Source: an uncultured Alphaproteobacteria bacterium
Lineage (GTDB): Bacteria > Pseudomonadota > Alphaproteobacteria > HIMB59
Assembly: GCA_902613185.1 (NCBI GenBank)
Contig: CACMGP010000002.1
Coordinates: 223,378-287,377, forward strand
Direction of reading: 5' to 3'
DNA: 64,000 nucleotides
How positions within the stretch are numbered: the first letter of the stretch is position 1; every line of letters starts with the position of its first letter. The translations under genes and the position numbers were made by a program. This document shows positions 14,380 through 64,000 of this stretch, piece after piece. A model generated the notes under the pieces. The model was not told the DNA's origin, did no database searches, and worked only from the letters and a program-made list of their open reading frames with translations.

Positions 14380-15279
14380 TCATTTAATACGATTAACGAT
14401 AAAATTAACAAGACTCGACATATATAGCAAGGGTTCCCTCTTTTTATTAAAGAAATTTTGCATTGCTTTGTAATTTCTATCTTGAATCAGTTTTAAATAC
14501 TTAATACATTCAGTGCGATTAAGCTTATATGCAATATTTGCTTTTTGTGAGTCTTTTTTAATTTTCTTTCCAACTTTTTTCTCATTGCCCCATCTATCAA
14601 GCATATCATCAGTAACTTGAAAAATTTTTCCAATTGTATCTCCAATTTTTTTTAGCTCTCTTTTTTTATTTAAATTTAATTTTTTTACTGTTAGAAGAAG
14701 ATTGAAACATAAACTGAATAATGCACCTGTTTTTAAAAGATGCATTGTCTCTATATCCTTTATTGTTGAATTTTTTTTCATGTAGATATCCATTGATTGT
14801 CCAGCAATCAAACCCTCCAAACCGTTAGCTTTTGAAAGCATCTGTATTGATTTGATTTTCTGATTATCAGAGAGATTTTTTGACTCAGCTAGCGTTTTTA
14901 CTGATAAAACTTGAAACATATCTCCAGCTAAGACAGCAGTTGCCTCATCAAATTTTTTATGCACAGTTAATTTACCCCTTCTATAGTCATCGTTATCCAT
15001 AGACGGTAAATCATCGTGGATTAGTGAGTGCAGGTGAACACATTCTATCGAAAGGGCAAAGTCATCTAATATTTTCGGCTTAATATTTAAATATAAACCC
15101 ATTCGACAAAGCAAGAACGGTCTAATCCTCTTTCCACCAGTTTTGGCAAAATAAATCATTGCCTTCTTAATTCGTTTATCGGGTGACTTTAATTCTTGTA
15201 TGTGTCTAATAAGCTTTTTATCAAAATTCAGAGAAAATGATTTAATTTGCTTTTTCTCAAAGTTTTCACTTATTTTCAT
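14380..15279 (-). CDS. ispA: Polyprenyl diphosphate synthase (FPP/GGPP synthase, CrtE/IspA type)
   Basis: Head-to-tail isoprenyl diphosphate synthase condensing IPP with allylic diphosphates. A 299-residue protein with GGKRIRP (48-54), first aspartate-rich motif DDLPSMD (89-95), and second motif DDMLD (224-228). The fifth residue before the first motif is His84, where FPP synthases often have Tyr and GGPP synthases small residues, so product length (C15 or C20) is not fixed by the sequence. Its place beside the rhodopsin/carotenoid genes suggests a CrtE role supplying GGPP for phytoene. No xseB or dxs neighbour is present. Confidence 0.9.
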   Translation of the reverse strand: MKISENFEKKQIKSFSLNFDKKLIRHIQELKSPDKRIKKAMIYFAKTGGKRIRPFLLCRMGLYLNIKPKILDDFALSIECVHLHSLIHDDLPSMDNDDYRRGKLTVHKKFDEATAVLAGDMFQVLSVKTLAESKNLSDNQKIKSIQMLSKANGLEGLIAGQSMDIYMKKNSTIKDIETMHLLKTGALFSLCFNLLLTVKKLNLNKKRELKKIGDTIGKIFQVTDDMLDRWGNEKKVGKKIKKDSQKANIAYKLNRTECIKYLKLIQDRNYKAMQNFFNKKREPLLYMSSLVNFIVNRIK

Positions 15280-15283
15280 TTAA

Positions 15284-15493
15284 TTACAAGTTATCCAAGT
15301 AATGAGAGGTGTGATTATCGAAAATGAATATAATTACACCTATAAACACAAGGTAAACAAAGAAATTAATGATTTTCTTAGTTTTTTTGTTATTTATGTA
15401 GCTTTTATTGAATTTCAGTATTATCCATAGCAATAGTGTGGATAAAAAGAATAAAAACCCATTAAACAGTACACTATCTTGAAAAATAGCCAT
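15284..15493 (-). CDS. Small two-helix membrane protein next to proteorhodopsin
   Basis: A 69-residue protein from ATG 15493 (73 residues if GTG 15505 is used). Two hydrophobic segments: SVLFNGFLFFLSTLLLWIIL and IINFFVYLVFIGVIIFIF, joined by a basic loop (KFNKSYINNKKTKK), and a short tail with two His. Only 4 bases separate it from the prenyl synthase gene, implying one transcript divergent from proteorhodopsin. No family is recognised. Location suggests, but does not prove, a role with the rhodopsin or carotenoid system. Confidence 0.6.
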   Translation of the reverse strand: MAIFQDSVLFNGFLFFLSTLLLWIILKFNKSYINNKKTKKIINFFVYLVFIGVIIFIFDNHTSHYLDNL

Positions 15494-15644: not shown

Positions 15645-16412
15645 ATGATTAAGTTTTTAAAATCTATGGCTATACCAACAGCTGCTCTAGTAGCACTGCC
15701 AGGAATAGCTTCTGCAAGCGTTGGCTTAGCGCCAGACGACTTTGTTGGGATATCTTTTTGGGTTATCTCAATGTGTATGGTTGCCGCTACTGCATTCTTT
15801 TTCCTAGAAACTAACAATGTATCAGGTAAGTGGAAGACATCTCTTGCACTTGGTGGTCTTGTTTGTCTAGTTGCCGCAGTACACTACTTCTATATGAGAG
15901 AAGTATGGGTAACAACAGGTGATACACCTACTGTTTATAGATATGTTGACTGGTTAATCACTGTTCCATTACAGATGATTGAATTCTACATTATCCTTGC
16001 TGCAGTTGCTGCAGTGTCAGCTGGTATTTTCTGGAGACTGTTAATCGGTACTTTAGTGATGCTTGTTGCTGGTTATGCTGGTGAAGCTGGCTTCATTAAC
16101 GCATGGGCAGGATTCATTGTAGGTCTAGCTGGTTGGGCATACATTTTATATGAAATTTTTGCTGGTGAAGCTGGTAAAGCTGCTGCTGACAAATGTCCTG
16201 CAGCTGTTCAAACAGCTTTCAACACAATGAGATGGATCGTTACAGTTGGTTGGGCAATTTATCCATTAGGATATTTCTTCGGTTACTTAACTGGAGGAGC
16301 TGATGCTGTAACTCTAAACGTTATCTATAACGTTGCTGACGTTGTGAATAAGATTGCTTTTGTCGCAGTTATTTGGGCTGCTGCTGTAGCATCTTCAGGC
16401 AAAAAAGCTTAA
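15645..16412 (+). CDS. pop: Proteorhodopsin, blue-absorbing light-driven proton pump
   Basis: Seven-helix retinal protein of 255 residues with a probable cleaved leader (MIKFLKSMAIPTAALVALPG). With numbering offset +5 from the reference green proteorhodopsin: His80 (H75), proton acceptor Asp102 (D97), spectral-tuning Gln110 (position 105, Gln means blue), proton donor Glu113 (E108), and retinal Schiff-base Lys236 (K231) in YNVADVVNKIAF. Motif RYVDWLITVPLQMIEF is diagnostic. Strong ribosome binding site upstream and a strong terminator downstream make it a self-contained transcription unit between divergent ispA-type and downstream crt genes. It should generate proton motive force in blue light. 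Confidence 0.98.
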   Translation: MIKFLKSMAIPTAALVALPGIASASVGLAPDDFVGISFWVISMCMVAATAFFFLETNNVSGKWKTSLALGGLVCLVAAVHYFYMREVWVTTGDTPTVYRYVDWLITVPLQMIEFYIILAAVAAVSAGIFWRLLIGTLVMLVAGYAGEAGFINAWAGFIVGLAGWAYILYEIFAGEAGKAAADKCPAAVQTAFNTMRWIVTVGWAIYPLGYFFGYLTGGADAVTLNVIYNVADVVNKIAFVAVIWAAAVASSGKKA

Positions 16413-46646: not shown

Positions 46647-47349
46647 TAAACTGGACCAAACTATTTAAAGATATTTTATTTTCGTATATAGCTTTACCTA
46701 CAACAACATTATTGAAACCATTAGATCTACTCAACTCAATATCGTTAAGGTCCTTAACCCCTCCTCCGATAGTAATATGTTTGTCAGTTAATTTTTTTAT
46801 AGAATTAAACGTTTCCATATTTAAGCCAGAGAGCATTCCATCATTAGCAACATCTGTGACAAAGTAGGAATGAATGGGACGGTTGTTATATTTATCTATG
46901 ATATGCTTTAAAGATTGATTAGTTGTTTCTTGCCAGCCATGAGAAGCAATTTGATTATCTTTTATATCCAAAGCAATGGATAGTTTTTCAATCAAAGAGT
47001 CGTCAAAATTTAAAACGTCATCAATATTCTTTATTGCAAAGGTTCCAATTACAATTGTATTAAAACCCTCATTAATTTTATCAATAATAGCATCTTTACT
47101 TCTTATGCCGCCAGCAACTTCAATATTAATATCAATTTTTCTTCTAATCTGACTCAGAACCTGATTGTTATTGCCTTTGCCTAATGTAGCATCTAAGTCT
47201 ACAACGTGGATAGTATTGAAACCTACATCTTGATATGTTTTAGCCATATCAAGGGGGGAATACTGATAGGTTGTTTTATCATCGACGATACCTTTGGTTA
47301 ATCGCACACATTTTCCGTCTATTATGTCAATTGCTGGGAATATATTCAT
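46639..47349 (-). CDS. hisA: ProFAR isomerase
   Basis: 1-(5-phosphoribosyl)-5-[(5-phosphoribosylamino)methylideneamino]imidazole-4-carboxamide isomerase. A 236-residue barrel: NIFPAIDIIDGKCVRL with catalytic Asp8, IEVAGGIRSKD, YFVTDVANDGMLSG with the second Asp, and ITIGGGVKDL. Overlaps hisH by 4 bases. Confidence 0.97.
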   Translation of the reverse strand: MNIFPAIDIIDGKCVRLTKGIVDDKTTYQYSPLDMAKTYQDVGFNTIHVVDLDATLGKGNNNQVLSQIRRKIDINIEVAGGIRSKDAIIDKINEGFNTIVIGTFAIKNIDDVLNFDDSLIEKLSIALDIKDNQIASHGWQETTNQSLKHIIDKYNNRPIHSYFVTDVANDGMLSGLNMETFNSIKKLTDKHITIGGGVKDLNDIELSRSNGFNNVVVGKAIYENKISLNSLVQFNA

Positions 47350-50949: not shown

Positions 50950-51451
50950 GTTTAATAGAAAAAAGCTTCCAATTAGGATCTGAGGATTTCTTATCTTTTT
51001 CAAAGCCCCATTCTTCGACAACATTCAGTATTTCGTTGTTTGCAACATTGTAATGTTCGGTTTCAAACTTGACAGACTTAACTAATCTTAAGTCATCAGA
51101 TTTATCATCTAAAATAGAACTATTCTTTACTTCTGAAAATTTAATTTCTTTGGGTGCTTTTGCTTGTTCCATTGCTTGCATTGCCTCAGGTGTAAGCAAA
51201 TCTTTTACTTTTTCAATACTGTTACTCTGATAGGCCTGAACAATCATTTCATATGCTTTGTTAGCGCCTTCTAAAAATTCGTTATTATCATTTTTTGGAA
51301 CTACTTTAGGTTTAAACTTCGATTGAGGATTTTTTTTTGTTCTAATATTCACAATTTTTCCATCAGAAGATCCAAGAATACTCCTTAGGCGATAAACTAA
51401 AAATATCGCAATTGCTCCAAAAAGCACAATATCTATAAATTCACTACTCAT
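50939..51451 (-). CDS. Tim44-like domain protein
   Basis: A 170-residue inner-membrane-anchored protein: one N-terminal helix (IDIVLFGAIAIFLVYRLRSI), a charged linker, then a Tim44-like domain (FLEGANKAYEMIVQAYQSNS; LLTPEAMQAMEQAK; VEEWGFEKD). Bacterial relatives (TimA) are ancestral to the mitochondrial import subunit. Lies in the conserved alphaproteobacterial order tim44-like-(mltA)-smr, here without mltA, and overlaps dnaQ by 8 bases. Confidence 0.9.
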   Translation of the reverse strand: MSSEFIDIVLFGAIAIFLVYRLRSILGSSDGKIVNIRTKKNPQSKFKPKVVPKNDNNEFLEGANKAYEMIVQAYQSNSIEKVKDLLTPEAMQAMEQAKAPKEIKFSEVKNSSILDDKSDDLRLVKSVKFETEHYNVANNEILNVVEEWGFEKDKKSSDPNWKLFSIKLVS

Positions 51452-52124
51452 AATTTTTCAACATCTTGGCCCAATTTGAATTAGGTATTTTATTTTTTAT
51501 AAACTCTTTATGGGCTTCTGTCTCTTCTTTTGTTATTACGATGGATGTGTAATTCGGCTCACTAGCTAGATTAATTTTTTCTGATTTAGTCTCACTTAAT
51601 TCTAATCCGATTTGGTTTATACCTTGTAGCTCCAAATATACATCAGTTAGGATTTTAGCGTCTTTTAACGCACCATGTTGATCTCTATTTATAAGTGTAT
51701 TGATTTTTAATTTCTTTATAAGTGCGTCTAATGATACTTGCTGCCCTGGAAACCGTTGTCTTGCAATTTTAATTGTATCTATAACTCTCTCCTTCAATAT
51801 TTGTGGTTTAGATAGTTTCTTAAGCTCAAAGTTTAAGAAACCTATGTCAAAAGATGCATTATGAGCGACAATGAAACTATCTTGAATAAATTCTAGGAAG
51901 CCGTCTGCAATCTCTTCAAAAATTGGCTTATCTGTCAAATATTCATTAGTTATACCGTGTATTTTAATATTGTCCTCGGTAAGAGTTTTAGAAGGGTTTA
52001 TATATTCATGATAGCTTGCCCCGACCTCTTTTTTGTTAAGTTCGATACAGCCAATTTCAATAATTCGATGTCCCTCTTTAAACTCTAAGCCTGTAGTTTC
52101 AATATCAAGTATAATTTCTCTCAT
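51444..52124 (-). CDS. dnaQ: DNA polymerase III epsilon subunit
   Basis: Proofreading 3'-5' exonuclease, DEDDh type. A 226-residue protein: EIILDIETTGLEF (ExoI, Asp and Glu), FIVAHNASFDIGFLN (ExoII), and NRDQHGALKDAKIL (ExoIII, His and Asp). The C-terminal tail would bind the polymerase. Overlaps coaE by 4 bases; usual neighbour secB is missing. Confidence 0.97.
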   Translation of the reverse strand: MREIILDIETTGLEFKEGHRIIEIGCIELNKKEVGASYHEYINPSKTLTEDNIKIHGITNEYLTDKPIFEEIADGFLEFIQDSFIVAHNASFDIGFLNFELKKLSKPQILKERVIDTIKIARQRFPGQQVSLDALIKKLKINTLINRDQHGALKDAKILTDVYLELQGINQIGLELSETKSEKINLASEPNYTSIVITKEETEAHKEFIKNKIPNSNWAKMLKNYE

Positions 52125-52678
52125 AACTTATTTAATAATTTAATTATATTTAAACGTAAGTTCAAGATTGAACCATTATTGTTTATCGTAAAGGTTGATT
52201 TATTTTTTTTTATATTTTCTTTAATCTGCTTATTATTCATTAATTTAAAATAATTTTCGGAGACACCTCTTTTTAAAACCCTATGTTTTCTCTTTGTAGT
52301 GTCCGAGTTTACGAATACAGTGACATTAAAATTATTGAACAAATTTTCTTCGTAAAGTAATGGAATTTCATAAAATACTGGCTGATAAGACTGATGTTTC
52401 TGGGCTGCTAATTTTTTTTTGGAGTATAGAAGTGGATATATTGTTCTCTTAAGTTTCCTGTTGAACTCTTCATTCTGTAACATTTTAATTATTTCTTGTT
52501 TATAATTATGATCATTAAGTTTTAATTTTTCTAAAATTATTTTTCTAGTGCGATCATCTTTATATAATTTTGAAATTATAGCATCAGATGATACACAAGA
52601 AAAACCCAGCTTTGAGATAAATTTAATAAATTCAGTTTTACCTGATCCTATATTTCCTGTAACTGCAACTTTAATCAT
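52121..52678 (-). CDS. coaE: Dephospho-CoA kinase
   Basis: Last step of coenzyme A synthesis. A 185-residue P-loop kinase with GNIGSGKTEF at 8-17, SDAIISKLY (DxD-like substrate motif), and the LYEENLFNNFNVTVFV segment. The N-terminal half is conserved; the C-terminal half is more divergent. Overlaps aroE by 4 bases and dnaQ by 4 bases. Confidence 0.93.
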   Translation of the reverse strand: MIKVAVTGNIGSGKTEFIKFISKLGFSCVSSDAIISKLYKDDRTRKIILEKLKLNDHNYKQEIIKMLQNEEFNRKLKRTIYPLLYSKKKLAAQKHQSYQPVFYEIPLLYEENLFNNFNVTVFVNSDTTKRKHRVLKRGVSENYFKLMNNKQIKENIKKNKSTFTINNNGSILNLRLNIIKLLNKL

Positions 52679-53490
52679 ATTTTATTTATAAGCATTTGAT
52701 AAATTTTTTTGTCTATTTCTATTTTATTGCCTGACCATATTTCGTAAGATGGTTTTGCTTGTTCTACAAGCATCTTCAATCCACCTGAGTATTTAATGTC
52801 GTGTTTTTTTGCTTTTTTTAACAGATCTGTATCAATTGGGTTATAAACAATGTCAATTACTCCTCTAGCGTTCTTAACTAAATTTAAAATGTTTCTGTTG
52901 ATTTTATTTTTTTTAGTCATCCCTGCACTAGATGCATTGATAATCAAATCATATCTCTTCCTGAGACGAGTTGATCTAATTAGGAAACGATTAAATTTAA
53001 ATTTTTTTTTAAGATTTTCTTCCCTTCTCATTGATGTTGCAAAAATATCAATATTTTTAATACTTTTTTTATTTAGAAAATATAAAATTGCTCTTGCGGC
53101 GCCCCCCGCACCAACTAATAATACAGATTTTGTATTTTTAATTTTTAAGGTATTAAAAGTCTTACTGAAACCAATAGCATCTGTGTTATCTCCAAAAATT
53201 GTTTTATTTTTTTTATAAATTAAATTAACAGAGCCTATTTTATTTGCTCTTGTTGTGACTTTATCACAAAAATTAATAAAAATTTCTTTATAAGGTATAG
53301 TAATATTAAACCCAACAAATTGTTTATCTCTTCTATAATTATTAAAAAATTTATCTATTTTTTTTTCCTGTACCTCGTATTTTCTATAAATAAATTTATT
53401 ATTATTTTTTTTTGCCCAATGATTATGTATGAATGGGGATAATGAATGATTCAGTTTTTTTGCTACAATTCCTATTTTTTTTTTATTCAT
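52675..53490 (-). CDS. aroE: Shikimate dehydrogenase
   Basis: NADPH-dependent step of aromatic amino acid synthesis. A 271-residue protein: KLNHSLSPFIHNHW for shikimate binding, FNITIPYKE with the catalytic Lys, NTDAIGF, the NADP motif VGAGGAARAILYFL, and GLKMLVEQAKPSYEIWSG near the C-terminus. Starts immediately after maf in the block maf-aroE-coaE-dnaQ. Confidence 0.96.
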   Translation of the reverse strand: MNKKKIGIVAKKLNHSLSPFIHNHWAKKNNNKFIYRKYEVQEKKIDKFFNNYRRDKQFVGFNITIPYKEIFINFCDKVTTRANKIGSVNLIYKKNKTIFGDNTDAIGFSKTFNTLKIKNTKSVLLVGAGGAARAILYFLNKKSIKNIDIFATSMRREENLKKKFKFNRFLIRSTRLRKRYDLIINASSAGMTKKNKINRNILNLVKNARGVIDIVYNPIDTDLLKKAKKHDIKYSGGLKMLVEQAKPSYEIWSGNKIEIDKKIYQMLINKI

Positions 53491-54084
53491 TTAGATACTT
53501 CTTAGTGTCTTTAAAAAATTAATAACATCTATTCCAATAATATTGAAATAACTGCCGTATATATCTTTAAAAAAAAAATTTCCTTTTCCTTCTATGTTAT
53601 AACAACCTACGGCCTTCGATACTTGTTTAAAGTTCTTATCAACGTAATTATTGATATCTTTTACTTTAGTATTTTTAAAAGTTATTTTTGTTTTTGTCAG
53701 AGTGCTTTTTATAAGATTGTTATTTATCATAAAAATCATGGCTGTGTAAAGATTGTGAGATTTATCATTAAATGCTTTTAAAGTTCTTTTACAACACTCG
53801 GGACTGGCACATTTATAAATGGTTTTTTTTTTAAATAAGATTGTTGTATCAAAAGTTACAATAATTTTATTACTATATTTTTTAGAAAGATATTCAGCTT
53901 TAGCTTTTGCAATTTTTAAAGCATCATATTTATCATTATTTAAATCTTTTACCTTTTTTTCATTTATGTTGGGCGATCTATACTGAAATTTTAGGTTCAT
54001 TAATTTAAAAATTTTTCTCCTAGATTGGCTTTTTGTGCCAATAATAACCTGTTTAGTTAATTGTGGATTAAGTGACTTATTCAT
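53491..54084 (-). CDS. maf: Maf family nucleotide pyrophosphatase
   Basis: House-cleaning nucleotide pyrophosphatase (septum formation inhibitor family). A 197-residue protein: IGTKSQSRRKIFKLM at the N-terminus (family SxSxxR), VTFDTTILFKKKTIYKC (Asp of the QTD/DT motif), and GCYNIEGKGNFFFKDIYGSY, then FNIIGI. First gene of the left operon; its 5' flank is the candidate origin region. Confidence 0.93.
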   Translation of the reverse strand: MNKSLNPQLTKQVIIGTKSQSRRKIFKLMNLKFQYRSPNINEKKVKDLNNDKYDALKIAKAKAEYLSKKYSNKIIVTFDTTILFKKKTIYKCASPECCKRTLKAFNDKSHNLYTAMIFMINNNLIKSTLTKTKITFKNTKVKDINNYVDKNFKQVSKAVGCYNIEGKGNFFFKDIYGSYFNIIGIDVINFLKTLRSI

Positions 54085-54319
54085 AAAATTTGTGAGTTTT
54101 AAACAACGAAATTACCATTAATTTATAAATATTAAGTTATCAACATTTGTTATTAAATAACTAAAAAAGTACTTAAATATGGGTTTTTTTAAATAAGAAG
54201 TTGTTAATCCCCATCATTCGACATACAACAACATACCTAATATATAAATATATATATTTTCTCTTTATTTTTTGTTATATACCTTATCAACATATCTAAC
54301 TATCTAGGTAATCTCCAAT
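54085..54319. other. oriC: Candidate chromosomal origin of replication
   Basis: 235-base divergent gap between maf and rho, in the same gene context as the Caulobacter origin (maf-aroE-coaE-dnaQ on one side, rho/mnm/par genes on the other). Two identical TTATCAACA boxes (54137-54145, 54284-54292), each one base from the TTATCCACA DnaA consensus, flank an AT tract of about 40 bases at 54239-54281 suited to melting. A third box TGTGGATTA (54062-54070), one mismatch in inverse orientation, lies in the maf start region. No gene is seen. Gene direction diverges from this point. Inference, not proof. Confidence 0.7.
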
Positions 54320-55576
54320 ATGCATTTAAACGAACTAAAAGATAAAAAACCTCAAGAACTATTAGACTATGCTGAGTCTTTAGGGATAGAAAATGCCTCT
54401 GGTTTAAAGAAGCAAGACATATATTTTTCTGTTTTGAAGAAATTCGCAGAAAAAAATGAAGAAATAATAGGTGAAGGTGTCTTAGAAACAATGCAAGATG
54501 GTTTTGGATTCTTAAGATCAGCAAATTCTAATTATCTTCCAGGACCAGATGATATATATGTTAGTCCAAATCAGATAAAGAAATATGGTCTCAGGAAAGG
54601 TGATACTCTTGAGGGACCTATCCGACCTCCTAAAGATGGTGAAAGATACTTTGCACTAGTGGAAACAAATAAAGTCAACTTTATAGAAATTGCTAAAAAT
54701 AATAAATTTAAAACAAATTTTGATAATTTAACACCTCTTTATCCAGAAAAAAAATTTAATCTAGAAACTGAAAAACCAGATATAGATTTATCATCCAGAA
54801 TTATAGACATTATTGCACCGGTTGGTGCTGGTCAAAGATCTTTAATTGTTGCACCACCAAGATCAGGTAAAACAGTAATTTTACAAAAAATAGCGAAGTC
54901 AATTGCTGAAAATTTTCCTGAAGTTTATCTAATGGTTCTTTTAATAGACGAAAGACCAGAGGAAGTTACAGACATGCAAAGATCTGTTAAAGGTGAGGTA
55001 ATTAGCTCAACATTTGACGAACCAGCTGCAAGACACGTTCAAGTTGCTGAAATGGTTATTGAAAAAGCCAAAAGACTAGCTGAGAATAAATATGATGTTG
55101 TAATTCTTTTAGACTCTATTACTAGATTAGGTAGAGCATATAACACTGTTGTACCATCAAGTGGTAAAGTCTTAACAGGTGGTGTGGATGCCAACGCACT
55201 TCAAAGACCAAAAAGATTTTTTGGTGCAGCTAGAAATATAGAAGAAGGTGGTTCATTAACCATTATTGCAACTGCACTAATAGAAACAGGCAGTAGAATG
55301 GACGAAGTAATTTTTGAAGAATTTAAGGGAACTGGTAATTCAGAAATTGTTCTCGACAGAAAATTATCTGATAAAAGAACATATCCTGCTATTGACGTTC
55401 AAAAGTCAGGCACCAGAAAAGAAGATTTACTCTTAGATGCTGGAGATCTCCAAAAAGTCTTTATTTTAAGGAAAATTCTATCATCCATGGGCACTGTAGA
55501 TGCTATGGAATTCCTTCTAGATAAGATGAAAGACTGTAAAACTAATGAAGAGTTTTTCAGCAGTATGAATCAGTAG
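54320..55576 (+). CDS. rho: Transcription termination factor Rho
   Basis: Hexameric RNA helicase that ends transcription. A 418-residue protein: N-terminal Rho helix domain (1-45), cold-shock-like RNA-binding domain with [17 protein letters not shown] (51-67), and ATPase with [17 protein letters not shown] (Walker A 178-185), [13 protein letters not shown], and [13 protein letters not shown] loops. Complete. First gene right of the candidate origin; the rho leader may extend into the origin. Confidence 0.98.
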
Positions 55577-60139: not shown

Positions 60140-61996
60140 TTGTTTCACGTGGAACATTATGATGTTGTAGTTATAGGAGCCGGTCATGCTGGAATAGAAG
60201 CTGCCAATATTTCTGATAAGTATGGCCTTAAAACAGCACTTATAACTAAAAATTACTCAGATTTGGGCAAATTATCATGCAATCCTAGTATTGGAGGCGT
60301 TGGTAAAACACACATAGCTAGTGAAGTTGATATTTTAGGAGGTGTAATTTGTAAAATTGGTGACAAATCAGCAATACATTACAGAGTATTAAATCTTTCT
60401 AAAGGGCCGGCAGTATGGGGCGTAAGAGCTCAAATTGATAGAGATTTATACTCTCTAAATATGAAAAAATTTATTAAGTCTTCTAAAATTGACCTTATTG
60501 AAGATGAAGCTACTAATATATTAGAAAAAAATAATAAAATTATAGGTGTTGAGTTGTCCAATATCGGAAAAATAAAATCAAAGGCGGTTATTCTCACAAC
60601 AGGAACCTTTCTTAATGGGAGAATTTATTTTGGTAATGAATCTCAAGAGGCAGGAAGAATAGGAAATAGCTCTTCAAAAGTTCTTGCAAAGTTTATTAAC
60701 AAGAATTTTAAGACAATGAGGTTGAAAACAGGAACGCCACCTAGAATATATGCAAAATCAATTAACTATGATGTTTTAGAACCCCAGATATCAGAGAATA
60801 ATGGTATATTTTTATCATATTTTACAAAACAAAATACGAACAAAAAGATTAATTGTTTCATTACCAAAACTAATAATAAGACACATAAAATAATTAGAGA
60901 TAACCTTGATAAATCTGCAATGTACTCGGGCATAATTAAATCGAAAGGTGTAAGGTATTGTCCTTCGATTGAAGATAAAATAACCAAGTTTGGAGATAGA
61001 AACGGTCATAATATTTTTTTAGAACCAGAGGGTTTAAACTCTGATCTTGTCTATCCTAACGGCATTTCAAATTCTCTAGATAAAAAGATCCAACTTAAAT
61101 TTTTAAAATCAATAAAAGGTTTAGAAGAATGTAAGGTAGATCAATTTGGATACGCAGTGGAGTATGATTCCGTTGACCCTAGAGAATTAAAAAATAATTT
61201 TGAAACAAAAAAAATAGAAAACTTTTTCTTAGCAGGGCAAATAAATGGAACTACAGGTTATGAAGAAGCAGCAGGGCAGGGTATCTTTGCTGCTATTAAT
61301 GCTGCAATAAAAATAAAAAAAATAAAATTTAGTAAAGAAGTTTTTGAAAGAGATAACAGTTATATCGGTGTCTTGGTTGATGACCTAACAAAATTAGGAG
61401 TTACTGAGCCGTATCGTATGTTCACATCTAGAGCAGAGAATAGGTTAAAGCTAAGAACAGATAATTCTTATGAACGATTTTCAAAAATTATCAATTCTAA
61501 AATTTTTAATAAAATTGAGTACACTTTGATTTCTAAAAATATCAATGAAGAAAGAAAGATATTAGATAAGTTAAAATTACTTAAATATTCACCCAATGAC
61601 CTGATGAAAAAAAATATAAAAGTAAAAAAAGATGGTAAGGTAAGAAATGGTTTTGAGATTTTAAAATTCTTAGACCCCTCTCCAAAAAAATTCAAAAAAT
61701 TTTTCAATCTCACTATAAGCCAAAAATTATTAACTAAATTATATTTTGACTCAAAGTATGACGTTTTTTATGAGAGAGAAAAAAAATCGTTTGATCAACT
61801 CAATAAGAATAAAAATATGAAATTAACTAATATTGATTTCAATAAGATCCCTTCTTTATCTAAAGAAATTCTTGAAAAATTAAATAAACATAAACCTGAA
61901 AATTTATATGATGCTGGTAAAATTTCAGGTATAACACCTAGCGCACTCTTTCAAATAGTCAAACACAAAAAAGTCAAGGGAACTAAAGTTGCTTAA
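60140..61996 (+). CDS. mnmG: tRNA uridine-5-carboxymethylaminomethyl(34) synthesis enzyme MnmG
   Basis: FAD enzyme partner of MnmE. A 618-residue protein: VVVIGAGHAGIEAA FAD site, NPSIGGVGKTHIASEVDILG, and YRVLNLSKGPAVWGVRAQID, RLKTGTPPR, LAGQINGTTGYEEAAGQG. TTG 60140 is chosen; GTG 60149 is an alternative. The first codons (FHVEH) coincide with a parS-like palindrome, so the sequence serves both a coding and a centromere-like role. Overlaps rsmG by 8 bases. Confidence 0.97.
   Translation: MFHVEHYDVVVIGAGHAGIEAANISDKYGLKTALITKNYSDLGKLSCNPSIGGVGKTHIASEVDILGGVICKIGDKSAIHYRVLNLSKGPAVWGVRAQIDRDLYSLNMKKFIKSSKIDLIEDEATNILEKNNKIIGVELSNIGKIKSKAVILTTGTFLNGRIYFGNESQEAGRIGNSSSKVLAKFINKNFKTMRLKTGTPPRIYAKSINYDVLEPQISENNGIFLSYFTKQNTNKKINCFITKTNNKTHKIIRDNLDKSAMYSGIIKSKGVRYCPSIEDKITKFGDRNGHNIFLEPEGLNSDLVYPNGISNSLDKKIQLKFLKSIKGLEECKVDQFGYAVEYDSVDPRELKNNFETKKIENFFLAGQINGTTGYEEAAGQGIFAAINAAIKIKKIKFSKEVFERDNSYIGVLVDDLTKLGVTEPYRMFTSRAENRLKLRTDNSYERFSKIINSKIFNKIEYTLISKNINEERKILDKLKLLKYSPNDLMKKNIKVKKDGKVRNGFEILKFLDPSPKKFKKFFNLTISQKLLTKLYFDSKYDVFYEREKKSFDQLNKNKNMKLTNIDFNKIPSLSKEILEKLNKHKPENLYDAGKISGITPSALFQIVKHKKVKGTKVA
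60141..60156. promoter_or_regulatory. parS: parS-like ParB-binding site
   Basis: TGTTTCACGTGGAACA differs from the universal parS consensus TGTTTCACGTGAAACA at one base; its core is palindromic. ParB spreads from such sites to segregate the chromosome. It covers the mnmG start codon and sits about 3.2 kb from parB and 6 kb from the candidate origin, as expected for an origin-proximal centromere. Confidence 0.85.
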
Positions 61997-62594
61997 TGAC
62001 AAGTTAGTGAAATTTTGTGATGATAATTTTGATGATGGAAAATTAATTTTAACCAAACTTTCTGAGTATAAAAAAATATTACTCAAAGAAAATGAGACCA
62101 TGAACTTAATAGGCAAAAGCACAATAATCGATTTAGACGAACGACACTTTTTAGATTGTATACAACTTGTCAAATATCTGCCTCGCCATGAAAAGTCCGT
62201 AATGGATATCGGAACAGGTGCAGGGCTACCAGGGATTATTTTGTCAATAATAGGCTTTAAAAACCTTCATTTAGTTGAAAAATCGCCAAAGAAATCATCT
62301 TTTTTAGAAAATTGCAAATTAAGACTAGGACTAAACTATGTTGTACATAATAAATCGATATCAGAAATATCAAACCTTAACATTGACTATGTAACAGCAC
62401 GCGCCTTTGCTTCAATTGAAAAAATTATATCTATGACTAAAAAAATAATTAACAAACAAACAAAGTTTATATTGCTTAAAGGAAAAACCTATCTAACAGA
62501 GCTTGAAACAATTAATCCACAAAAGTATTTTTGGGAGACACATTCAAGCATTACTTCAAGTGAATCAAAAATAATAATCATGACTGCAAAATGA
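61989..62594 (+). CDS. rsmG: 16S rRNA (guanine527-N7)-methyltransferase
   Basis: SAM-dependent enzyme (GidB). A 201-residue protein from TTG 61989, overlapping the mnmG stop by 8 bases. Motifs: ETMNLIGKSTIIDLDERHFLD at the front, SAM loop VMDIGTGAGLPGI, LVEKSPKKSSFLENC, and VTARAFASIEKI. Overlaps parA by 4 bases in the operon mnmE-mnmG-rsmG-parA-parB. Confidence 0.96.
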   Translation: MLNDKLVKFCDDNFDDGKLILTKLSEYKKILLKENETMNLIGKSTIIDLDERHFLDCIQLVKYLPRHEKSVMDIGTGAGLPGIILSIIGFKNLHLVEKSPKKSSFLENCKLRLGLNYVVHNKSISEISNLNIDYVTARAFASIEKIISMTKKIINKQTKFILLKGKTYLTELETINPQKYFWETHSSITSSESKIIIMTAK

Positions 62595-63358
62595 TTATTA
62601 CTATAGCTAATCAAAAAGGAGGAGTTGGGAAAACAACAACTGTTGTCAATCTGGCAACTGCTTTGGCCTCAATCGATAAAAAAGTTTTAGTTATTGATAT
62701 GGATCCACAATATAACTCATCAATGTCATTTAATGCTTACAACGCTAAATTATCTATATATAGAGTCTTTAGTAACGAGGTAAACATTGAAGATACTATA
62801 CAAAAGTCTCAAATACCAAATTTAAACGTTATTTCTGCTTGTGAGGACCTCGCAGCCGCAGAGTACGAGTTAGCTGATGATGAAAATAGGAATTTTCTAT
62901 TAAAAAATTACATAAATAAAATTAAAAATAATTATGAATATATTTTTATTGATACACCGCCTACATTAGGCTTATTAACAGTGAGTTCTTTAACCGCTAG
63001 TGGAGAGGTATTAATACCAGTCCAGTGTGAATTTTTTGCCTTAGAGGGATTATCTAAATTAATCAAAACAATAGAATTAGTAAAAAAAAATTTAAATATA
63101 AACCTTAAACTAAACGGTATAATTTTAACAATGTATGATAAAAGAAATTCTTTATCATCATTAATTGAAAAAGAAGCTAGAGAATATTTTGATACAAGTG
63201 TATATAAATTCAATGTTCCTAGAAATGTAACTTTGTCTGAAGCACCGAGTCACGGACTTCCGGCAATTATTTATGATTTAAAGTGTAGTGGGTCTCAAGC
63301 ATATATAGCTTTGGCGAAAGAATTTTTAGAAAGGAGTAAATTTAATGGCAGTCAATAA
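62591..63358 (+). CDS. parA: Chromosome-partitioning ATPase ParA
   Basis: Walker-type ATPase driving ParB-parS segregation. A 255-residue protein: deviant Walker A KGGVGKTT (9-16), VIDMDPQYNSS (Walker A' Asp), YIFIDTPPTLGLLT, and C-terminal EAPSHGLPAIIYD. Typical chromosomal ParA/Soj length with no N-terminal DNA-binding domain. Overlaps parB by 14 bases. Confidence 0.97.
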   Translation: MIITIANQKGGVGKTTTVVNLATALASIDKKVLVIDMDPQYNSSMSFNAYNAKLSIYRVFSNEVNIEDTIQKSQIPNLNVISACEDLAAAEYELADDENRNFLLKNYINKIKNNYEYIFIDTPPTLGLLTVSSLTASGEVLIPVQCEFFALEGLSKLIKTIELVKKNLNINLKLNGIILTMYDKRNSLSSLIEKEAREYFDTSVYKFNVPRNVTLSEAPSHGLPAIIYDLKCSGSQAYIALAKEFLERSKFNGSQ

Positions 63359-64000
63359 AAAATTAGGAAAGGGTTTATCCTCTCTATTAGGAAATAAAGA
63401 TATTGCTAAAATTGATAATCCTGAAAATAAAGGCTTACTACTAATACCTATTGAAAAAATATTTAGAGATGAAACACAGCCAAGAAAAGAATTTAATAAA
63501 GAAAAAATAGATGAATTAGCTCAATCAATTAAAAAAAATGGACTAATTCAGCCACTGGTTGTTATAAAAAAAGACCTAGACAATTATCTTTTGGTGGCAG
63601 GAGAAAGAAGGTGGAGAGCAGCCCAAAGCACTGAAATTAAGGTTTTACCTGCTTTACTACTACCAGACGATCTTGATAAAGATGAAATTTCTTTAATTGA
63701 AAATATCCAAAGAGAGGATTTAAAAGTTTCAGAAGAGGCCAAAGCATATCAACGATTAATTGAAAAAAACAACTATACTCATGAAACATTGTCCAACATA
63801 GTTGGTAAGAGCAGGTCTCATGTTTCAAACCTGCTTAGAATATTAGATTTAAATGAATTTTTCTTAGATTTACTAAATAAAGGGAAAATATCTATGGGGC
63901 ATGCTAGAGCTTTAATTGGTAAAACACCAAGAGATTTTGATGATTACACGCTAAACAAAATTATAAATGGTAAAACATCAGTCAGAGACTTAGAAAGAAA
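63345..64000 (+). CDS. parB: Chromosome-partitioning protein ParB (3' end beyond window)
   Basis: CTP-dependent clamp that binds parS. ATG 63345 is preceded by the strong ribosome binding site AAGGAG at 63330-63335. N-terminal LGKGLSSLLG tag (ParA-stimulating), ParB/Srx domain with GERRWR (86-91) and ENIQRED of the CTP site, then helix-turn-helix (NIVGKSRSHVSNLLRILDL). About 218 codons are visible of roughly 280 expected. No defect seen. Confidence 0.97.
   Translation, partial: MAVNKKLGKGLSSLLGNKDIAKIDNPENKGLLLIPIEKIFRDETQPRKEFNKEKIDELAQSIKKNGLIQPLVVIKKDLDNYLLVAGERRWRAAQSTEIKVLPALLLPDDLDKDEISLIENIQREDLKVSEEAKAYQRLIEKNNYTHETLSNIVGKSRSHVSNLLRILDLNEFFLDLLNKGKISMGHARALIGKTPRDFDDYTLNKIINGKTSVRDLER

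Follow-up and report, generated by a model that had tools for sequence, protein, structure and literature searches.

A probable replication origin between maf and rho in an HIMB59 genome, with hemE displaced and strand asymmetry apparently inverted

The maf–rho gap and its sequence elements

The window, by which we mean the whole 64,000-nucleotide stretch of DNA analysed here, covers bases 223,378-287,377 of contig C2 in an incomplete assembly (1.35 Mb, 11 contigs; genome G000) of an uncultured HIMB59 alphaproteobacterium. A first-pass annotation had noted that gene direction diverges between maf and rho and that partition genes lie within 10 kb, and it had proposed that the space between the two genes is the chromosomal replication origin. 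Both points are borne out by the frames: a maf-aroE-coaE-dnaQ block runs leftward on the minus strand, with rho on the plus strand, and among the open reading frames of the window none lies between maf and rho. The best-named NCBIfam models score above their cut-offs for dnaQ, aroE, rho, mnmG and rsmG and below them for coaE, maf, mnmE and parA; mnmG, rsmG and parA are located within 60140-63358. The main features are as follows.

51444..52124, minus: dnaQ (frame list, NCBIfam model above cut-off)
52121..52678, minus: coaE (59.9 bits, cut-off 65.55)
52675..53490, minus: aroE (frame list, NCBIfam model above cut-off)
53491..54084, minus: maf (Maf family), left flank of the gap, 5' end at 54084 (102.2 bits, cut-off 117.15)
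54085..54319, no strand: maf–rho intergenic gap, proposed oriC, 235 bases (C2:277,462-277,696)
54320..55576, plus: rho, right flank of the gap (frame list, NCBIfam model above cut-off)
60141..60156, plus: parS-like 16-mer TGTTTCACGTGGAACA where mnmG begins, one mismatch from the consensus used
62591..63358, plus: parA-type partition ATPase (ParA/MinD matches below cut-offs; position also used for naming)
63345..64000, plus: ParB-like frame, open at the window end, named by eye

The parS-like site, 6 kb from the gap, is the single exact match to the pattern GTTTCACGTGRAAC in the assembly. The gap has an A+T content of 79% (0.791) against 69.5% (0.695) for the window, our yardstick, and such an excess of AT over the surroundings is a property of Cori-type origins.

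Short elements in and beside the gap were compared across 22 related gaps, namely those of 21 same-genus loci reaching maf and that of L002, a near relative (uncultured Alphaproteobacteria) whose Rho is 98% identical to the Rho of the window; locus L102 begins at rho.

54062..54070, minus: near-box TAATCCACA at the start of maf (exact in 15 of 22 related gaps)
54137..54145, plus: DnaA-box-like TTATCAACA, which forms the left half of an inverted but imperfect pair (exact in 10 of 22, changed in 12)
54148..54156, minus: inverted partner TGTTATTAA (on the minus strand TTAATAACA), 2 bases past the left half (exact in 18 of 22)
54202..54235, plus: core, TGTTAATCCCCATCATTCGACATACAACAACATA, best-conserved part of the gap
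54242..54281, no strand: AT tract, candidate unwinding region, most AT-rich 40-mer of the gap
54284..54292, plus: TTATCAACA box (exact in 1 of 22, the window's own)

The two identical TTATCAACA boxes reported at 54137 and 54284 are present on the plus strand, each one mismatch away from TTATCCACA. The inverted near-box also exists, but it sits inside the maf coding frame and not in the gap, and coding constraint can account for its retention. The 40-base AT tract was correctly located, except that 37 of its 40 bases are A or T; as many as 240 of the 63,961 40-mers of the window are at least as AT-rich. As grounds for oriC, the boxes are partly weak: of the three, maf contains one, another lacks conservation and the third is degenerate in related gaps. 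We dropped box clustering as the main argument because only one of the two TTATCAACA boxes shows any conservation. The box at 54284 is probably incidental; the inverted partner at 54148-54156 is a candidate for a DnaA role. Boxes with at most one mismatch number 24 in the window, with 21.4 expected by chance. Three boxes within 54062-54319 were reached in 0 of 2,000 shuffles of that segment's own composition (mean 0.129), and some 250-base cluster of three occurs in 10% of 60 locally shuffled windows. A larger cluster, of four boxes within 500 bases at 14957-15445, was matched in 0 of the 60.

The maf–rho gap contains no TTATNCACA, only degenerate boxes, and neither a strict CtrA site (TTAA-N7-TTAA) nor an IHF-type site, so that in these respects it departs from Cori-type origins; GANTC is likewise absent from it, and the loose pattern TTWW-N7-TTWW has three matches there. 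Lacking TTATNCACA as well as strict CtrA and IHF-type sites, the gap may be a stripped-down origin. SAR11 is similar in part, as TTATNCACA is missing from the 300 bases before hemE in 8 of 11 loci and present in the other 3.

Conservation of the gap and of the gene order around it

The search for Rho covered 40 genomes: 25 belong to the genus, that of the window among them, and 15 to another family in the same order. A match at threshold was obtained in 38 of the 40, and a convincing Rho in 22 of the 25 genus genomes (two have none and one a weak match). Within the genus the non-coding gap is conserved, measuring 233-246 bases in the 22 related gaps. In the other family, maf precedes rho in all 8 fetched loci (of 15 genomes), with gaps of 396-398 bases. 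Among 12 representatives, the top two 20-base conservation windows start at 54202 and 54203, and the AT tract follows; the tract is well kept in close relatives and changed in the three most divergent gaps (L105-L107). In one locus, L108, rho (G007 C4:111581-112835) is broken into two parts that differ in reading frame, which probably reflects an error of assembly or sequencing.

A profile of the core retrieved the gap on C2 with E 2.2e-18, a value due in part to construction, the profile having been built from these gaps, and the next match had E 4.2. On G019 the gap was again matched, partly by construction, with the next match at E 3.2. The same profile search found neither the gap of the other family nor that of SAR11. 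By eye, an element of DnaA-trios and AT common to the gap, the other family and SAR11 had looked convincing. The published BUS rule specifies at least three tandem DnaA-trios within 16 bases of a DnaA-box (PMC8287927); our looser proxy, two trios (CTA with NTA), occurs on the plus strand of 150-base stretches from the related gaps (5 of 22), the other family (7 of 8) and SAR11 (8 of 11), and in 54, 60 and 49%, respectively, of their shuffles, so that this trio test is not significant. We withdrew the shared element because the profile searches do not carry over and the motif count is not above shuffles.

Named genomes yielded 80 rho loci, 64 of them with at least 6 kb upstream, and in 57 of these 64 at least two of dnaQ, coaE, aroE and maf lie on the opposite strand before rho, the block being missing in seven. 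In 35 of the 57 block-bearing loci hemE stands in between; in 22, L002 included, it was undetected by this query. In SAR11, hemE and hemH precede rho in 11 of 11 loci, and the block is visible before them in 10 of 11 (L042 is cut). The hemE of the window genome is on another contig (C1:419661-420635), away from the origin block, with a hemB-like frame before it and a hemH-like frame after it on C1 (also in L117), both named by eye; the locus was set aside as an origin candidate.

In Caulobacter, Cori lies between hemE and COG1806, and this pair has been used to locate other origins (PMC1914354). By that rule the gap studied here has the wrong boundary genes, as neither hemE nor COG1806 (ppsR) flanks it: maf adjoins it and hemE is on C1. 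By the broader description, in which an intergenic gap has maf/aroE/coaE/dnaQ to one side and hemE or rho/mnm/par to the other, it occupies the right place with hemE displaced. Since hemE/COG1806 is a published location criterion and not a mechanism, the locus is better described as an origin at this junction whose flanks have been displaced than as a textbook member. Block and rho synteny, the position of hemE elsewhere and the published placing together lead us to read the maf–rho gap as the ancestral origin gap whose old neighbours are gone.

Like the Caulobacter crescentus Cori and Rickettsia-type hemE/COG1806 origins, the gap is AT-rich, intergenic and at the same conserved-gene junction (PMC1914354), and parS is nearby in both. 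In a Phenylobacterium locus (L048) and many other alphaproteobacterial loci, as in the window, rho-mnm-rsmG-parA lies across the junction from the block. Unlike in Caulobacter/Rickettsia-type origins, however, hemE is elsewhere, no frame parts maf from the gap, the gap measures 235 bases where the origins printed in PMC1914354 exceed 400, the TTATNCACA, strict CtrA and IHF-type motifs are missing, and skew polarity is inverted. The gap also resembles the origins of Wolbachia and Neorickettsia, which are reported to have been kept though one boundary gene was lost, the preferred region of Neorickettsia being described as free of DnaA and CtrA sites (PMC1914354). In these two genera hemE is still beside the origin, whereas in the window genome hemE has left and maf and rho are now the boundary genes. 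The SAR11 gap before hemE (11 loci) occupies the same place in the block, and the asymmetry sign there is inverted as in the window genome in 2 of 2 sampled genomes (z -3.0 and -2.1); SAR11 differs in having kept hemE-hemH before rho and in a sequence not recognisably common by profile search.

Strand asymmetry: location and polarity

In raw all-base cumulative GC skew, contig C2 has its minimum at 323.7 kb and none at the maf–rho gap. The first-pass annotation had stated that a GC-skew minimum elsewhere would refute the origin, and such a minimum does occur, but the test is invalid here. Raw skew is uninformative as an origin locator on C2 because coding strand dominates it; with inverted polarity the corrected signal has a maximum at the gap, and asking for a minimum would wrongly reject the site.

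We therefore express coding-corrected skew as GC skew at fourfold-degenerate sites per coding strand, fitted by a one-switch model on a 500-base grid. The switch is best placed at C2:277,500-278,001 (support interval 270.5-280 kb), 16.6 log units above no switch, and a gene bootstrap gives a 2.5-97.5% range of 250-288 kb with a median of 278 kb. Within the support interval, the maf–rho gap is the only space between frames longer than 38 bases, the length of the next-largest. A switch of replication-strand asymmetry, as expected of oriC, is thus present at the site with inverted polarity. In four two-arm genomes from two families, the switch is offset from the respective gap by +421 bases (G000), -5,756 (G019; 480,001 against 485,757), -1,182 (G025; 230,001 against 231,183) and -629 (G035; 484,001 against 484,630). 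G017, almost one arm, gave a switch without usable location; moreover, G000, G017 and G019 are close relatives and so are not independent replicates. For SAR11, the switch of G041 is at 51,001 with the gap at 47,300, only 5.4 units above no switch, and that of G042 (mostly one arm) is 38 kb off its gap. The controls, Novosphingobium and Methylocystis, are off by 43 and 51 kb. The switch is well located only under strong asymmetry, as these three displacements of 38-51 kb illustrate.

With the gap taken as origin, the lead-minus-lag fourfold GC skew is -0.145 in G000 (z -5.9), -0.220 in G019 (z -7.6), -0.250 in G017 (z -7.0), -0.153 in G025 (z -5.1) and -0.150 in G035 (z -3.9). In SAR11 it is -0.110 (G041, z -3.0) and -0.085 (G042, z -2.1), and in the controls +0.071 (z 3.4) and +0.023 (z 1.4, not significant). 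In all seven genomes from the order and SAR11, the strand inferred to be leading is therefore the C-richer one, and the G-enrichment that is usual for, though not definitive of, a leading strand is lacking. For the window genome, the largest of 5,000 gene-label permutations was 0.092, compared with the observed -0.145.

The left arm of C2 carries 154 kb of coding sequence on the minus strand and 105 kb on the plus strand; the short right arm has 37 kb plus and 35 kb minus, no real excess. On C1, of which about 339 of 642 kb were sampled, the majority strand is plus in the first 40 kb (27.6 against 7.3 kb) and minus beyond 60 kb (183 against 69 kb). The fourfold skew of C1 switches back, best at 45 kb (support 40-57.5 kb; 9.7 units above no switch). 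Coding strands thus diverge at the maf–rho gap and converge near C1:45 kb, and since skew and majority strand both flip there, we take C1 at about 40-57 kb to be the terminus region. The 16S rRNA gene is on the minus strand at C1:340 kb, that is, on the inferred leading strand. A dif consensus had no match at 3 mismatches in the genome and no standout in the stretches examined, a family search for rpoB returned nothing in this incomplete assembly, and rplB, on contig C7, is useless for orientation.

Weighing the readings

The claim that oriC lies between maf and rho with hemE not adjacent is upheld by synteny, by the switch in four two-arm genomes, by the diverging strands and by parS. We consider that the maf–rho gap is very probably oriC, and we give a probability of about 0.87 to the full reading, in which this chromosomal origin would be opened by DnaA, would send out forks bidirectionally, would be segregated through parS and would have a C-richer leading strand. 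DnaA (encoded at C2:189,072-190,385 by a frame of 455 residues, above the family cut-off) would bind degenerate box-like sequences, either the inverted pair at 54137-54156 or the core at 54202-54235 or both; judged from its conservation, the core is a candidate DnaA or duplex-opening site and possibly also the rho -35 region. The AT tract at 54242-54281 would be opened and helicase loaded, forks would leave the gap both ways, and ParB acting on parS, 6 kb to the right, would segregate the new origins. At synonymous sites the leading strand from the gap would be richer in C than the lagging strand, contrary to what is usual.

Several results speak against an origin here: the missing TTATNCACA, strict CtrA and IHF-type motifs, the raw skew without a minimum at the gap, the short and nearly balanced right arm of C2, the core profiles that do not reach the other family or SAR11, the non-significant trio test, the dif search without a match, the displaced switches of G042 and the controls, and the reversed polarity, which alone would mark a terminus. 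The polarity leaves two readings, an origin whose skew is inverted or a terminus whose skew is normal, and under normal polarity, with a G-rich leading strand, the C-richness of the strand we call leading in all seven genomes is indeed the pattern of a terminus. A terminus would, however, leave most coding sequence on the lagging strand (191 against 140 kb on C2, besides the excess in sampled C1 beyond 60 kb) together with 16S rRNA, and it would place parS and the alphaproteobacterial origin block at a terminus; Novosphingobium, furthermore, carries the same block with normal polarity. Diverging genes, 16S and parS make the origin reading much the better one, and we regard a terminus as very unlikely. 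It is unlikely, too, that the gap holds merely the divergent maf and rho promoters and a rho leader, with oriC a few kb away. A -35/-10-like pair is readable by eye in 54217-54248, the switch support spans several kb, and moving the switch to parS or to a box at C2:268.3 kb costs just 3.5 and 2.6 log units. Yet the support interval offers no other space above 38 bases, the junction is that of the ancestral origin gap, and the two other-family offsets are only -629 and -1,182 bases. Origins adjacent to dnaA are common, and in the window genome dnaA (C2:189-190 kb) is 87 kb from the gap; the cluster upstream of proteorhodopsin (14957-15445) has the densest boxes in the window, and at C2:331.2 kb two exact boxes stand 130 bases from each other. 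An origin at any of these three places is nevertheless highly improbable, as the switch fits worse there by 16.3, 10.4 and 13.4 log units, respectively; the pair at C2:331.2 kb, one box of which is within a coding frame, was rejected.

If the gap is the origin, its polarity still calls for an explanation. On balance we lean towards a C-rich leading strand in the order and, more weakly, in SAR11, with oriC at the maximum of corrected skew, so that skew tools may mislabel origin and terminus. Somewhat less probable, though to be taken seriously, is that the gap is oriC while the inverted skew is not driven by replication, leading-strand genes being more expressed and preferring C-ending codons. 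As this would predict, G000, G019 and the two SAR11 samples show null skew in their intergenic sequence. On the other hand, the sign is the same in 12 of 12 tertiles of a C-ending-codon proxy (G000, G019, G025, G035), and the leading strand of G025 (z -2.3) and G035 (z -3.8) is rich in C in the spaces that separate oppositely directed genes, while the skew of such spaces is not significant in G000, G019, G041, G042 and the controls. A candidate cause of a replicative inversion is loss of mismatch repair, with raw polymerase errors outweighing cytosine deamination, as suggested by the reported lack of mutS and mutL in two SAR11 subclades (PMC12374537). Published skews bear on the SAR11 part of the proposal. 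Pelagibacter ubique is listed among six chromosomes whose replication-associated G skew is high by alphaproteobacterial standards, in a study assigning the origin at dnaA where skew and dnaA agree (PMC2031905); our negative sign, with oriC before hemE, conflicts with what is given there unless the origin was placed differently. For a Fonsibacter genome the reported skew has the expected form, from which polarity does not follow (PMC6811365). Among the matches listed from open-licence PMC papers, none concerned an oriC or inverted skew in HIMB59, which is weak evidence of absence.

In the gap a streamlined marine lineage thus has an oriC candidate of 235 bases; a reconstructed HIMB59 genome in the literature was started at dnaA (PMC10734472). 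The gap would also be an origin that stayed in place while its textbook neighbour hemE left. Were the inversion true, a per-lineage sign would be needed wherever a G-rich leading strand is assumed, as in origin finders, assembly checks and growth estimates from peak-to-trough ratios; for some bacteria that are among the most abundant in the sea, skew-based tools for origins and growth rates may confuse origin with terminus, and the lineage would offer a natural test of the cause of GC skew.

Several box-like sequences elsewhere in the genome deserve mention. At C2:331140-331278 (L084 3763-3901), the two exact TTATCCACA boxes, one inside a coding frame, lie between two divergent frames, one of 815 residues and the other, a repetitive one, of 2,274. 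Two other close TTATCAACA pairs, at C1 536.9 and 599.5 kb, were discarded, every box being within a coding frame. In the window, an exact DnaA box (TGTGGATAA on the plus strand) is found at 15437-15445 on the minus strand, upstream of a proteorhodopsin-like gene at 15645. The neighbouring TTATCCATA at 15421 is not kept in relatives; the exact box is preserved in all 18 genus loci examined (L202-L219; the short matches L220-L224 are outside this count), down to about 71-77% local identity, and DnaA control of this light-pump gene is possible.
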